Positions 6,112 through 39,050 of a stretch of DNA of 39,050 nucleotides are shown piece by piece. The position numbers and the translations under genes are program-made. Under the pieces are notes generated by a model. It was not told the DNA's origin. It saw only the letters and a list, made by a program, of their open reading frames with translations, and made no database searches. The stretch covers positions 1 through 39,050 of the forward strand of contig JAADIA010000092.1 in NCBI GenBank assembly GCA_013151555.1, given 5' to 3'. Numbering within the stretch: position 1 is the first letter of the stretch; each line of letters starts with the position of its first letter. This DNA comes from Nitrospirota bacterium (GTDB taxonomy: Bacteria > NPL-UPA2 > JAADIA01).

Positions 6112-7680
6112 TCATTTGCTGCGGCTATGGTTAAAATCGAATAGATGCCCGATGATCTTTGCCCCTGCCCGGACGAAATATTTAATATCGTCCATATCTT
6201 TAACCGAACCTAATCTTCTCCATACAAATTCGGGATTAAAGGCAACTCCATATATTCCCTGAACTAATTTTGCCACCCTTTCATCCTCCATGGGGATTTT
6301 CATCACCGGCTCTTTCATATCATAGCGGTCCCAATCAAGCGTCTTAAGCAAGCCTTTTTCTTTGCATTCCTCAAATAGCGGGGTGCCGGGATAGGGCACA
6401 ACCATGGTTGCCTGAACGGTATGGGCATAGCCTTTTCTCAAAAGGTACCGACCTAATTTAAGCGTCCTCAGGGCATCTTCATAACTTTCCCAGGGATAGC
6501 CGAACATTATGGTTATATGGGGATACAGCCCTGCTTTCCTTGCCGACTTACATGATTCAATGATTACTTCTGCTTTTAGCCCTTTGTCTATCCTGTTGAG
6601 GGTAGCCTGGTTCGCTGATTCCAAACCAAAAAGCAAGAGTCGGAAGTTCGCCTGTTTCATTAACTTGTACTCTTCAAAGTCACAGGCCCCAAAGCGCATA
6701 TTACAATCCAGGAAGACCCTCCTGTTGTAACCTCTTTCCATCATCCCCCGGCAAAATTTTCTCAGCCACTCGCCGCCGGGAAAAGTGCCCGTATCATCCA
6801 TGATCTCTTTTACCTGGTGCCTCTCGAGAAGCATTCCTATCTCATCGAGAACTTTTTCAGGTTTCCTCACCCGGAAACTGGGGTAGAGCGTCGTCCAGGA
6901 ACAGAAGGAACATTTATGATACCAGCAGTCCCGGCCCGCCATAATATAAGTTCCGGGGAGGCTTTTATAATTCCCGTTATGGGTGGAATACAGGTGCCAT
7001 TTTGTTAATTCCCGGTCGATAAAAGGAGAACTGTCCAGATCATGATTAAGCTGGAATTTGCCCGTATCTTTAATCCGGCCGTTATCGCGGAAGTAAATAC
7101 CGGGTTCTAATTTAGTTGAAAGTTGAAAGTTTCCGCCTGTGGCGGATCCACCCTTGGCGGAGAAAGTTGAAAGTTTTTCCAACCTCTTTTGTTTCCTAAG
7201 ACAGTTGCATAATTTTAATAATAAAAAATCATAGTCTCCGCCAGTGAGGACAAAATCCACCGGGGAATGATGGAAGCTTTCTTCGGGAAGAGCTGTAACA
7301 TGGTCACCCATTAAAACAGTTGAAAGTCGAAAGTTTCCGCCTGCGGCGGATCCGCCTTTGGCGGAGAAAGTCGAAAGTTCTTTTAAATCGTTGATGATTT
7401 TCCAGTGACGTTTGACAACGGGGGTCTTTGTCTCCAAAGCGATCAGGTCCGGTTTCTCTCTCTTTATAAACTCGAGGAATTGAGAATAGCTCCAGCCTTC
7501 GGCGATGCAATCGTTCCAGATAACTTCATGGCCGTCCCGCTTGAGAAGCGTTGCTGCCGAAGCCGGCACCACGGGATAGATATAAGTAGGTTTTTTAAAG
7601 ACCTGGTACTGCCGGTTCTGGCTGAGGAGAGGTGTGCCCTCAAGGCCTTCAAGAGGTGGATAGGAGATTATTATTTTCAT
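6112..7680 (-). CDS. B12-binding domain radical SAM protein with two repeat insertions
   Basis: This 522-residue BchE-like protein has an N-terminal B12-binding-like domain (about 1-160) and a radical SAM core. The cluster cysteines lie in DCWYHKCSFC (C252, C257, C260), a Cx4Cx2C spacing rather than the usual Cx3Cx2C; related B12-radical SAM subfamilies are known to carry CW-type motifs like this, but I cannot check it. Two 20-residue near-identical blocks, about 102-121 and 170-189 (each starting LSTFSAKGGSA and ending NF-R/Q-LST), are encoded by copies of a palindromic element and interrupt the B12-domain/linker region. The reading frame is kept through both. The gene sits between the GT2-GT4 fusion and an SDR epimerase in the glycan cluster. 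Substrate unknown. Confidence 0.85.
   Translation of the reverse strand: MKIIISYPPLEGLEGTPLLSQNRQYQVFKKPTYIYPVVPASAATLLKRDGHEVIWNDCIAEGWSYSQFLEFIKREKPDLIALETKTPVVKRHWKIINDLKELSTFSAKGGSAAGGNFRLSTVLMGDHVTALPEESFHHSPVDFVLTGGDYDFLLLKLCNCLRKQKRLEKLSTFSAKGGSATGGNFQLSTKLEPGIYFRDNGRIKDTGKFQLNHDLDSSPFIDRELTKWHLYSTHNGNYKSLPGTYIMAGRDCWYHKCSFCSWTTLYPSFRVRKPEKVLDEIGMLLERHQVKEIMDDTGTFPGGEWLRKFCRGMMERGYNRRVFLDCNMRFGACDFEEYKLMKQANFRLLLFGLESANQATLNRIDKGLKAEVIIESCKSARKAGLYPHITIMFGYPWESYEDALRTLKLGRYLLRKGYAHTVQATMVVPYPGTPLFEECKEKGLLKTLDWDRYDMKEPVMKIPMEDERVAKLVQGIYGVAFNPEFVWRRLGSVKDMDDIKYFVRAGAKIIGHLFDFNHSRSK
7118..7175 (-). repeat. Double-hairpin element, copy 1, inside a coding sequence
   Basis: A 30-bp core (7132-7161) is flanked by identical 14-bp direct repeats GAAAGTTGAAAGTT (7118-7131 and 7162-7175). 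Read on the minus strand the core is two adjacent TCCGCC/GGCGGA-type hairpins with 3-nt loops; one arm has mutated (ccaccc), so pairing is imperfect in this copy. It encodes the second 20-residue block of the radical SAM protein. Confidence 0.88.
7322..7379 (-). repeat. Double-hairpin element, copy 2, inside a coding sequence
   Basis: The same architecture as the copy at 7118-7175: direct repeats GAAAGTCGAAAGTT at 7322-7335 and 7366-7379 flank a 30-bp core at 7336-7365. The minus-strand core reads TCCGCC-AAA-GGCGGA then TCCGCC-GCA-GGCGGA, both perfect 6-3-6 hairpins. Both flanking repeats carry the same T-to-C difference relative to copy 1. It encodes the first 20-residue block of the radical SAM protein in the same frame. 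Confidence 0.9.
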
Positions 7681-36141: not shown

Positions 36142-36278
36142 CCTGTTCCCGCTGATGGAACTAATGCAAAGACCAAAGGCCGAACCCTAACAACCTTTCC
36201 CGTTTAGTTATATTGGATATTGATGTTTGGAATTTATGTGATGTTTGGTGCTTGATTATTGGTTGTTACTCTTTTTAA
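36142..36278. other. yidC-mnmE spacer with degenerate TTTGG/ATTGG repeats
   Basis: Between about 36211 and 36265 the plus strand is made of short degenerate units such as ATTGGATATTG, GATGTTTGGAATTT and GATGTTTGGTGCTTG. Such T/G-biased patches differ from the surrounding coding DNA. No promoter or terminator is evident. Confidence 0.45.
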
Positions 36279-36290
36279 GTGGTTGAAAGA

Positions 36291-37676
36291 ATGCCCTCTT
36301 GCAAGGAAGATACCATTGCCGCTATCTCTACCCCTTTAGGAGAAGGAGGGATCGGTATTGTCCGCCTCAGCGGGCCGGATTCTTTAGCCCTCGCCGACCG
36401 GATTTTTCGGAATAAAGATGGCAAACACCCCTCCCGGATGCCTTCCCACTCTCTCCATTACGGGCACATAATAGCTAACGGGAAACTCCTGGATGAGGTG
36501 CTTCTCACCGTTATGCGCGCTCCCCGCACCTATACCCGGGAGGATATCGTGGAGATCAACTGTCACGGAGGGATCGTCCCGTTGAGGAACGTCCTGGAGT
36601 TAACCCTTAAAGAAGGTGCCCGCTTAGCGGAACCGGGGGAATTTACCCGGAGAGCTTTCCTGAATGGAAGGATTGATTTAGCCCAGGCAGAAGCGGTTGT
36701 GGAGACGATTAAGGCCAAGACCGACTTAAGCCTTCGGGCGGCAATGTCCCAACTAAAAGGAAATTTATCAGCGCAAGTGGAGGGGATGAAAGACTGTTTG
36801 CTAAAACTGATAGCAAATGTGGAGGCATTTATAGATTTTGCCGGGGAGGGCGGAGGGGCGTTCCGGGAAAAGGATTTAAGCAAAGAAGTGGAAAAGTTAA
36901 GGGTTGAGCTGGCCGAGCTGCTGGCTTCGGCCGAGCAGGGACGGGTATTACGGGAGGGAATCAAGACCGTTATTACCGGGCGGCCGAATGTGGGGAAATC
37001 CAGCCTCTGGAATGCGCTCCTGGGAGAGGAGCGAGCCATTGTCACGGCTCTTCCCGGGACCACCCGGGATGCCCTTGAAGAAATGGTGAATGTCCGGGGG
37101 GTTCCTCTCCGCTTGGTAGATACGGCCGGGATAAGGCGGGCTCGGGGAAGGATAGAAAGAGAAAGCGTAGTTAGAAGTCATCGCTCTCTTCAAGAGGCAG
37201 ATCTTGCCCTGATCGTTTTGGACGGGTCTGCCCCCTTGGCTGAGGAGGATAAAGAGATCGGGGAAGAGTTAAAGGGGAAGGAAACTATCGTCGTTATTAA
37301 TAAGATAGACCTCCGCCAGGGCCTAAAGACCGGGGACGTGAAGAAAACCTGGCCCGGCAAAAAGATAGTCCGGGTTTCCGCCACTCAAAGGGTCGGCCTG
37401 CCGGAGCTAAAAAAAGCTCTGGCCGATATTGTCTGGCGGGGAGCCGTTCCGGCTCCGGAAACGATATTGGTGACCAATGCCAGGCATAAAGAGGCTTTAG
37501 CGAAAGCCGGAGAGCGGTTGGGGGAAGTGAGCGTCGGTCTCAATCGTCAACTTCCGCCCGAGTTTATAGTAAGCGACCTCCGCTCGGCCCTGAACTCTTT
37601 GGGGGAGATTGGAGGAGAAACGGCCACGGAAGAGATCCTCGACCGGATATTTTCCCAGTTCTGTATCGGCAAGTAG
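36291..37676 (+). CDS. mnmE: tRNA modification GTPase MnmE (TrmE)
   Basis: About 461 residues. The N-terminal formyl-THF-binding domain starts DTIAAISTPLGEGGIGIVRLSG-like, the helical domain follows, and the inserted G domain has GRPNVGKSSLWNALLG, the TTRD switch, DTAG and NKID. The C terminus is FCIGK with the conserved cysteine. With MnmG it modifies the wobble uridine of some tRNAs. I chose ATG 36291; an in-frame GTG 12 bp upstream is possible, and neither has a strong ribosome-binding site. The stop codon lies only 2 bp before the palindrome array. Confidence 0.96.
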   Translation: MPSCKEDTIAAISTPLGEGGIGIVRLSGPDSLALADRIFRNKDGKHPSRMPSHSLHYGHIIANGKLLDEVLLTVMRAPRTYTREDIVEINCHGGIVPLRNVLELTLKEGARLAEPGEFTRRAFLNGRIDLAQAEAVVETIKAKTDLSLRAAMSQLKGNLSAQVEGMKDCLLKLIANVEAFIDFAGEGGGAFREKDLSKEVEKLRVELAELLASAEQGRVLREGIKTVITGRPNVGKSSLWNALLGEERAIVTALPGTTRDALEEMVNVRGVPLRLVDTAGIRRARGRIERESVVRSHRSLQEADLALIVLDGSAPLAEEDKEIGEELKGKETIVVINKIDLRQGLKTGDVKKTWPGKKIVRVSATQRVGLPELKKALADIVWRGAVPAPETILVTNARHKEALAKAGERLGEVSVGLNRQLPPEFIVSDLRSALNSLGEIGGETATEEILDRIFSQFCIGK

Positions 37677-37678
37677 TA

Positions 37679-37860
37679 ATAGTCACTGCGTGATGGGAAC
37701 AAATAGTCACTGCGTGACGGGATAGTTCGCCGGTGGCGAACGGGGATAGTCAGCTGACGCTGACGGAAAACGCTCTTCCCGCCCGCAGGGCTAATCCCGT
37801 CCGCCGTCGGCGGACTAAACCGTGAACGGAGGGAACTATTCCGTGAGCGAAGCGAACTAT
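37679..37860. repeat. Convergent 4+4 array of small hairpin units (REP-like)
   Basis: Eight units share a 5' foot ATAGT (or TTAGT/TTAG) and a 3' foot ACGG(G)A around variable short inverted repeats, mostly with 3-nt loops. Plus-strand units start at 37679, 37703, 37722 and 37746: TCAC-TGC-GTGA, GTCAC-TGC-GTGAC, GTTCGCC-GGT-GGCGAAC and GTCAGC-TGAC-GCTGAC. Minus-strand units lie at 37777-37795, 37795-37818 (GTCCGCC-GTC-GGCGGAC), 37820-37840 and 37841-37860; the last two contain G-A-rich imperfect arms. The array occupies the whole mnmE-rsmG spacer and runs into rsmG. It resembles BIME-type REP clusters. Confidence 0.8.
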
Positions 37861-38604
37861 TCTTTAAGGAAATTGCTCCGGGAGGGGGCGGCATCGGTGG
37901 GCGCTCCTTTGGAGGCGGAGCAGGTGGAAAAATTCCTTCTCTATCTGGAAGCGGTTAGGGAAGGGAATAAGAAGGCGAACCTTACCTCGACCAGCAACCG
38001 GCGGGAGTTGATCTTGAAGCATTTTATTGACTCCCTCAGCTGTGTTCCTCTGCTTCCTCTGAATCCGGACATTTCTCTCCTCGACGTGGGAAGCGGGGCC
38101 GGATTTCCCGGCCTGGTCCTGAAAATATACCGTCCGGATGTTCATCTGGCTCTGTTGGAGGCCTCCGGGAAAAAATGTGCTTTTCTTGCTTCTCTGATAG
38201 AGAAGCTGAAGCTAAGCGAAACGGAGTTGTTGAGAGACCGGGCGGAAATGTATGGACAGGAGGTCCGGCACCGGGAGCATTATCAGGTAGTCGTCTCCCG
38301 GGCGGTAGCCCCCTTAAAGGTCCTGGTCGAATACTGCCTTCCATTTGTAAAGAAGGGAGGTCTCTTTATCGCTCAGAAAGGCCCGAAAGGATACGACGAG
38401 CTCCAGGAAGCCGCTGGCGCGATAAGCCTCCTGGGCGGCAAAGTCTCCGGAATCCGGGAAATAACCCTCCCCGCCGGAAACGAGAACCGCCTGTTAATTT
38501 CTCTTACCAAAAACAGCTCCACCCCCTCCAAGTATCCCCGCCGACCCGGCATCCCCAGGAAAAGACCCTTATTAAGAAGGCCGGGGTCAAATCTTTCATC
38601 TTGA
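37843..38604 (+). CDS. rsmG: 16S rRNA (guanine-N7) methyltransferase RsmG
   Basis: About 253 residues. NKKANLTSTSNRRELILKHFIDSL, followed by the SAM-binding LLDVGSGAGFPGLVLKIY and VVSRAVAPLKVLVEYCLPF, identify RsmG (GidB), which methylates G527 of 16S rRNA. I place the start at GTG 37843 because GGAGGG (37828-37833) is 9 bp upstream; GTG 37822 is in frame but has no such site. Both candidate starts, and the first six or so codons, lie inside palindrome-array units. The C terminus is basic and overlaps the convergent transposase gene by 9 bp. Confidence 0.92.
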   Translation: MSEANYSLRKLLREGAASVGAPLEAEQVEKFLLYLEAVREGNKKANLTSTSNRRELILKHFIDSLSCVPLLPLNPDISLLDVGSGAGFPGLVLKIYRPDVHLALLEASGKKCAFLASLIEKLKLSETELLRDRAEMYGQEVRHREHYQVVVSRAVAPLKVLVEYCLPFVKKGGLFIAQKGPKGYDELQEAAGAISLLGGKVSGIREITLPAGNENRLLISLTKNSSTPSKYPRRPGIPRKRPLLRRPGSNLSS

Positions 38605-39050
38605 TAATCTCTGTTCAATCCTTTGCATGAGGAGGGAAAGATTTCTCTCTTCAGCAACTTTTTGCTTTAATTTTTTCCTTCCCTGACTCACCGTGCTATA
38701 ATCTACGCCCATTAGTTTTCCTATCTCTATTCCTTTAAGCCCTCCCACCCGATACAACAACTCCATCGCAACCTGCCTTATTATCCCTTTTTCTGCTCTG
38801 ATCTCACTAAGCGTCTTCCCCGTTTCTTCCCTTATCGCGTTTAGTATAGCGTCTTTTGCCTTGTAGCTCAGGATCCTCTTAACAGCTGGAACCTCTCGCG
38901 TTTCCCGGCCAGACAATTTCTCTTTTACCCAGCCTATGAATTCATCGCTACCCAGAACACTTCCCCCGACAATTCTTTCTCCAATGTCTATCTCATTAGA
39001 GATGTCCCCGCATATATTTGTCCAGTATGCTTTCCTTCCCTGCTCGGTAT
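38596..39050 (-). CDS. REP-associated tyrosine transposase (Y1/IS200-like), C-terminal part
   Basis: An open frame continues off the right edge, so the 5' part, including the expected HUH/Y1 catalytic domain, is not in the window. The visible roughly 150 residues include GGSVLGSDEFIGWVKEKL and TREVPAVKRIL, a pattern found after the catalytic domain of RAYT proteins. A C-terminal helix-turn-helix follows (GLKGIEIGKLMGVDYSTVSQ), similar to the DnaA-like domain many of them carry. No start codon need lie inside the window; a TTG at 38916 is only an internal codon. RAYTs mobilise or maintain REP palindromes, and a palindrome array lies about 740 bp away. Confidence 0.75.
   Translation of the reverse strand, partial: TEQGRKAYWTNICGDISNEIDIGERIVGGSVLGSDEFIGWVKEKLSGRETREVPAVKRILSYKAKDAILNAIREETGKTLSEIRAEKGIIRQVAMELLYRVGGLKGIEIGKLMGVDYSTVSQGRKKLKQKVAEERNLSLLMQRIEQRLSR

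Follow-up and report, generated by a model that had tools for sequence, protein, structure and literature searches.

Hairpin arrays in a Nitrospirota bacterium: a probable low-copy family of composite palindromic repeats beside a separate Y1 transposase

BIMEs and REPINs, described from Enterobacteria, Pseudomonas and Stenotrophomonas, resemble the arrays studied here in several respects. They consist of short intergenic palindromes in opposite orientations with a short unpaired foot, their arms show paired changes, and their opposed palindromes form a larger fold, as the facing groups of hairpins can do here in computed DNA folds. Hybrid BIMEs also combine several REP types in one cluster, as our arrays do (PMC2817692). 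There are clear differences, however. In our arrays, units facing the same way are grouped and the groups converge, instead of alternating. Arm types differ within a single array, in contrast to the conserved sequence of REPs. Furthermore, there are eight copies only with almost no solitary units, and we found neither a GTAG foot nor a partner transposase flanked by units.

In BOX elements of Streptococcus pneumoniae (boxA-boxB-boxC), the ends are constant whereas the modules inside vary. Our arrays share with them a composite build, strong secondary structure and a position between genes, a likeness that is structural and by description. They differ in that each module of our arrays is a small hairpin of its own, and the inner part combines several kinds of module rather than repeating a single one. 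BOX elements are likely parasitic and co-transcribed (PMC3049150).

CGTC-tagged REPs offer a third comparison. Read on the other strand, many array units start with CGTC and carry a short tail at the other end, and for CGTC-tagged REPs a dedicated transposase is likewise not known (PMC3733652). Yet, the stems of the arrays are shorter (4-7 bp versus 8-9 bp), as are the loops (3-4 nt versus 4-5 nt; PMC3733652). Moreover, the base at position 4 of the tag is variable in the arrays (CGTC, CGTT and CGTG, with CCGC in one type) and is paired, whereas the tag of these REPs is invariant and unpaired.

Array structure and copies in the genome

The window, i.e., the whole stretch of 39,050 nt analysed here, contains an array of eight small hairpin units, four in each orientation, which face a 12-bp centre (37767-37778) within 182 bp in total (Table 1). 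Reading of the sequence and a script-based parse thus bore out the preliminary description on this point. Five of the eight stems are perfect (4, 5, 6, 7 and 7 bp), while those of units 1, 7 and 8 are imperfect. The shared feet of the units had been given as ATAGT and ACGG. The feet are indeed kept, but the 5' foot is either ATAG or TTAG, and the pair is better written as [AT]TAG(T) on the 5' side and (A)CGG, usually ACGG, on the 3' side. The array is genuine and beyond chance. Its 200 bp contain 4 perfect units with a stem of at least 5 bp. In 5000 first-order simulations of this stretch, the mean was 0.0006 and the maximum 1; for the entire window, 4 units compare with a mean of 0.15.

Table 1. 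Features of the array and its surroundings, in window coordinates.
Feature	Position	Strand	Sequence or remark
mnmE (trmE)	36279..37676	+	TrmE_N and MnmE_helical matches; stop codon ends 2 nt before array
Convergent hairpin array, whole element	37679..37860	.	CAC end left, TTCGC end right
Unit 1, CAC type	37679..37696	+	ATAGTCACTGCGTGATGG; imperfect, outer A-C pair weakened to A-T/G-U
Unit 2, CAC type	37703..37720	+	ATAGTCAC-TGC-GTGACGG
Unit 3, TTCGCC type	37722..37743	+	ATAGTTCGCC-GGT-GGCGAACGG
Central block (CAGC unit, centre, GCCC unit)	37744..37799	-	inverted relative to other arrays
Unit 4, CAGC type	37746..37766	+	ATAGTCAGC-TGAC-GCTGACGG
Unit 5, GCCC type	37779..37794	-	TTAGCCC-TGC-GGGCGG
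Unit 6, CCGCC type	37797..37818	-	TTAGTCCGCC-GAC-GGCGGACGG
Unit 7, degenerate TTCGC type	37820..37839	-	ATAGTTCCCTCCGTTCACGG
Unit 8, TTCGC type	37841..37860	-	ATAGTTCGCTTCGCTCACGG = ATAGTTCGC-TTC-GCTCACGG; two stem mismatches
rsmG (gidB)	37843..38604	+	GidB match 5.6e-49
Transposase terminal inverted repeat, 22 nt	38583..38604	+	GGGGTCAAATCTTTCATCTTGA; partner GGGGTCAAATCTTTACTATTGA, C42:25221-25242, upstream of N-terminus
Y1/HUH transposase, C-terminal half, TIRYT kind	38596..39050	-	protein 38599-39048; cut by contig end

The 1.81-Mb assembly contains eight related arrays, on contigs C49, C54, C60, C62 (two arrays, C62a and C62b), C78, C80 and C98 (the window). This count is based on a loose and then a stricter pattern search of the whole assembly, a covariance model built on one half of the array element, and inspection of the contigs. 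The loose pattern gave many chance matches, yet clusters were visible, and the stricter one singled these out clearly. The covariance model returned the eight arrays at E 1e-27 to 1e-20, followed by five opposite halves and then a drop to E 0.0015; all 13 matches with E <1e-8 were in this genome. In the window array, it matched 37698-37770 (E 1e-20) and 37775-37865 (E 1.5e-15).

For counting units, we searched the whole genome with the patterns and the model, and used sequence stretches totalling 215 kb. A relaxed rule gave 39 units in the genome, almost none of them solitary, and one perfect unit was found outside the arrays in 215 kb. Similarly, seven stem types (CAC, TTCGCC, CCGAC, CAGC, CGC, GCCC and TTCGC) were confined to arrays in the 215-kb sample. 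Our searches are therefore in agreement with the earlier view of a multicopy, palindromic, REP-like family in which arms vary while feet are kept. A scarcity of further units would have counted against the preliminary description, and this applies only by half: units do occur elsewhere in the genome, but nearly all of them lie inside the eight arrays. This makes the family unlike classical REPs, which occur between genes in high copy, including single units and dimers.

Searches beyond this genome gave little. With the covariance model, we detected no related array in eight further genomes from this phylum, the nearest of which belong only to the same order, nor in about 230 wider genomes. The covariance-model matches that we read outside this genome consisted of the CCGCC palindrome alone, in unrelated settings. 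The CAC unit had one match among 84,980 species, a lone hairpin (L058) at a near-chance rate, and no match in viral contigs. A 14-base core matched one other genome among 290, and a search of plasmids with the C78 array gave no match. As a separate observation, repeated pattern matches at the start of a contig (G000:C21:1-481) marked a unit that recurs about every 114 bp.

Read in one orientation, the arrays have a common order. A TTCGC hairpin (GTTCGC-TNC-GCTCAC, with two mismatches) is followed by a CCGCC or TTCGCC hairpin, a CAGC hairpin and sometimes a second TTCGC hairpin. After the centre, GGGAAAGATTTTCC, come a GCCC hairpin, a TTCGCC and/or a CCGCC or CCGAC hairpin, and finally a CAC hairpin (GTCAC-TTC-GTGAC). 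Both end hairpin types are constant among the arrays, with diverged versions in C62b and C80, while the inner modules are variable and were lost, gained, swapped or inverted from array to array. Pairwise array scores were mostly much higher in one orientation. When the central block of the window array was flipped, its score improved against every other array (e.g., 32 against 13.5 for C80). The sequence between the hairpins is also common to the arrays (for instance, GGGAAAGATTTTCCGCCCGAAGGGCTAA), which indicates that the arrays are copies of one element.

At equivalent places, the arms differ on both sides jointly, with four pairs in which both sides had changed, and 98.4% of the cells were paired. 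The covariation score was 0.199, compared with 0.088 after shuffling (0 of 500 shuffles reached 0.199) and at most 0.076 in slid controls. Hence, the arms change together and pairing is kept. Several causes could lie behind these paired changes: selection acting on RNA or on single-stranded DNA, template-directed correction of quasi-palindromes, or the exchange of entire modules. In computed DNA folds of the array, either the two halves were paired as one long stem or the units folded one by one.

Arrays at gene junctions

Array neighbours were named by profile matches. One array each lies at the junctions mnmE/rsmG, nrnA/truB, Yip1 gene/tmk, dnaK/dnaJ, purB (divergent)/leuD and PilZ gene/lptF. 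On contig C62, the order is a TPP-enzyme gene, an array, a four-helix-bundle gene, a second array and the 5' half of a tRNA with a group I intron. The intron (L039:1797-2012; Rfam RF00028) appears to interrupt the tRNA gene, whose 5' end adjoins C62a; ARAGORN did not call this interrupted tRNA. The four-helix-bundle gene (23S rRNA IVP/Avd-like; L039:2283-2708) has an array on either side, both pointing the same way, and its likely GTG start is within a hairpin unit.

Array ends coincide with or lie inside stop or start codons at nrnA-truB, mnmE-rsmG, the TPP-enzyme and four-helix-bundle genes, dnaJ and tmk. For instance, the nrnA stop codon is the TGA within a CAC hairpin, and the stop codon of the TPP-enzyme gene is the TAG of a unit foot. 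In the window, unit 8 supplies the first codons of rsmG, with a likely start at the GTG at 37843, and GGAGGG on the plus strand of unit 7 is a possible ribosome-binding site. The last codons and the stop of rsmG lie within the inverted repeat of the transposase. The TTCGC end points toward the downstream gene in seven of the eight arrays, C80 being the exception (two-sided sign test, about 0.07). It lies within 4 nt of a start codon, or overlaps it, in five arrays, and in C62a it is a few bases from the tRNA half. These sites fit insertion into tight gene junctions, with harmful insertions purged by selection.

An alternative explanation might be that the arrays are RNA elements selected by the host, in which intercistronic trains of hairpins set the relative expression of operon genes, either as a barrier to RNases or through translation control. 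Most sites are indeed between co-directional genes, and the polarity of the arrays, their proximity to start codons and the paired arm changes would all be in line with such a role. Yet, no theme unites the genes that follow the arrays (rsmG, truB, tmk, leuD, dnaJ, a tRNA and the four-helix-bundle gene), and module content varies by site. A related array is absent from the examined genomes of the same order or phylum, Rfam models gave no match within 36200-39050 up to E = 1, and the near-perfect DNA palindromes suit either strand equally. We consider this explanation unlikely.

Two more specific ideas were abandoned. Control of the CsrA type through the GGA loop of the TTCGC hairpin was dropped, as GGA loops were present in three arrays only. 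A link to four-helix-bundle genes was rejected as well, since one such gene lies between the C62 arrays while the other four are at sites without a model match.

The neighbouring transposase

About 740 bp from the array, with rsmG in between, lies the C-terminal half of a transposase, at the distance previously reported. Its assignment to the Y1 type, including the HUH motif, was confirmed in contig C42, which ends in the N-terminal half (Y1_Tnp match, E 4e-11; HFH motif). The halves on C42 and C98 correspond to opposite ends of full-length homologues, which are 316-319 aa long. In these homologues the catalytic tyrosine lies within YIHLNPV or YLHLNPV; that of the window copy falls in the C42-C98 assembly gap. 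Inward from its transposase half, C42 carries a LAGLIDADG gene and then parA, and joining the two contig ends gives the order rsmG-transposase-LAGLIDADG-parA. rsmG and parA form a usual neighbourhood. The LAGLIDADG endonuclease gene (L044:7702-8127, contig C42) sits between parA and the transposase, beside the presumed join with the window.

The preliminary description interpreted the locus as a candidate REP/RAYT-like system, in which the units would be mobilised by the adjacent Y1 transposase through recognition of their ATAG foot. Besides the proximity of the enzyme, this is suggested by the short single-stranded foot next to the hairpin in every unit, as in REPs. With eight arrays in 1.81 Mb, we estimate a chance of about 1% that one lies less than 1 kb from a given gene, although this pair was chosen for its adjacency. 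The transposase, however, is bounded by GGGGTCAAATCTT inverted repeats of its own and not by array units, the nearest of which lies beyond rsmG, and its 22-nt repeats are unrelated to the units. This contrasts with a REPtron, where the transposase is directly flanked by its cognate REPs; the Y1/HUH domain of REPtrons is present here, in the C42 half and the full-length homologues. Four homologues elsewhere have perfect repeats of 24-27 nt, mostly of the GGGGTCAGGTCTT type or similar. The only other Y1 transposase of this genome (L043:6192-6931, contig C1; 223 aa, TIRYT type) likewise has 26-nt terminal inverted repeats, AAAGGGGACAGGCTACTTTAATTCTT, which are 88% complementary and contain GGGGACAGGC. 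The ATAGT hairpins had nothing in common with the inverted repeats of either Y1 gene, and no such repeat was found inside the array units. Moreover, seven of the eight arrays are on contigs without a Y1 gene, and the foot is neither GTAG nor GTGG. Because both Y1 genes have inverted repeats of their own, we rejected the RAYT partnership as the main reading and regard it as quite improbable.

The transposase itself resembles the TIRYT or TnpAREP subclass 2.1 enzymes. It combines a Y1/HUH domain with a putative DnaA-like C-terminal helix-turn-helix, albeit with weak similarity (Bac_DnaA_C, E 0.0012, below the curated cut-off), and each of its ends carries a GGGG[AT][CG]A inverted repeat without directly flanking REP units. 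REPs are likewise lacking near the published enzymes of subclass 2.1 that have a DnaA-like tail (PMC6006769). TIRYT repeats carry the motif GGGGWSAS (PMC3733652); GGGGTCAA, found on both sides of the transposase, agrees with it in 7 of 8 letters and differs in the last base, and the homologues have GGGGTCAG. A further difference is that the gene here is split by an assembly gap. Judged from its sequence, the window transposase is a separate element bounded by terminal inverted repeats (TIRYT), and probably not the partner of the array. It is conceivable at most that a Y1 enzyme acts on the arrays in trans. Integron attC sites, which also have variable arms and fixed feet, were dropped by inspection; cassettes are absent and the arrays are far too small.

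Stem palindromes and the origin of the arrays

One stem led beyond the arrays. The core of the CCGCC stem, TCCGCC-N3/4-GGCGGA, occurs 33 times in this genome, versus once for the reversed control. Multiple copies of the 15-bp palindrome TCCGCCTNAGGCGGA occur in scattered and only distantly related genomes (G080 with 71, G123 with 27 and G093 with 20; also G158, G184 and others), while most genomes lack it or nearly so. Copies lie between genes, apparently in frame within protein-coding sequence, inside a 16S rRNA gene (L065) and inside a glycine riboswitch (L062). Among the papers searched for four versions of the palindrome, a single one, on an unrelated subject, prints any of them. It is conceivable, but rather doubtful, that the arrays are scaffolds of hairpins with fixed feet that exchange palindromic stems, and that the TCCGCCTNAGGCGGA stem comes from a very short palindrome spreading independently across distant bacteria, also into riboswitch, rRNA and coding hairpins. 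If true, a cellular process that swaps or rewrites arms while keeping the feet would account for the arrays as well as for the copies scattered elsewhere.

Elsewhere in the window, two 65-nt palindromic repeats (7114-7178 and 7318-7382), 91% alike, lie in frame in a radical-SAM-like gene (6112-7680, minus strand), to which they add the peptide KLSTFSAKGGSA(A/T)GGNF(R/Q)LST twice.

Chance palindromes or ordinary transcription terminators are a very remote explanation: intergenic hairpins are often terminators and a T-rich stretch follows the CAC end at some sites, but the unit count is far above the shuffled expectation, eight copies have a common order, most units are followed by GGG and not by a T run, and arrays lie within operons such as dnaK-dnaJ.

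In our view, the array probably belongs to a family of composite palindromic repeats that is specific to this genome and low in copy number. Its members are about 110-250 bp in length and of the general BIME/REPIN or BOX kind, and the neighbouring transposase is a separate element. The family resembles genomic parasites of a generally familiar type that multiply by being copied; we infer its mobility from the order common to the arrays and from their positions at gene junctions. The whole array, rather than a single hairpin, would be copied, probably via a single-stranded intermediate folded through its facing hairpins and complementary feet. As a non-autonomous repeat, it would be served in trans by some enzyme. 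The copies may have been remodelled later by slippage, by recombination between feet in inverted orientation and by template-directed correction of their arms. Because most arrays sit between co-directional genes, they are probably transcribed, and effects on messenger stability and downstream translation are likely as a by-product. Alternatively, the arm changes could reflect selection on RNA. The common orientation toward the downstream gene would, if upheld, be unusual for a plain parasite.

Our results also warn against pairing a nearby Y1 transposase with nearby hairpins; the transposase's own inverted repeats should be considered first. If the composite repeat family is interpreted correctly, a little-sampled bacterial phylum shows that small palindromic repeats can take the form of ordered elements with several hairpins, low in copy number and copied as a unit, without an adjacent RAYT. 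This would widen the range of REP-like repeats, and the eight natural variants of the array would provide material for how arms change while feet stay fixed.
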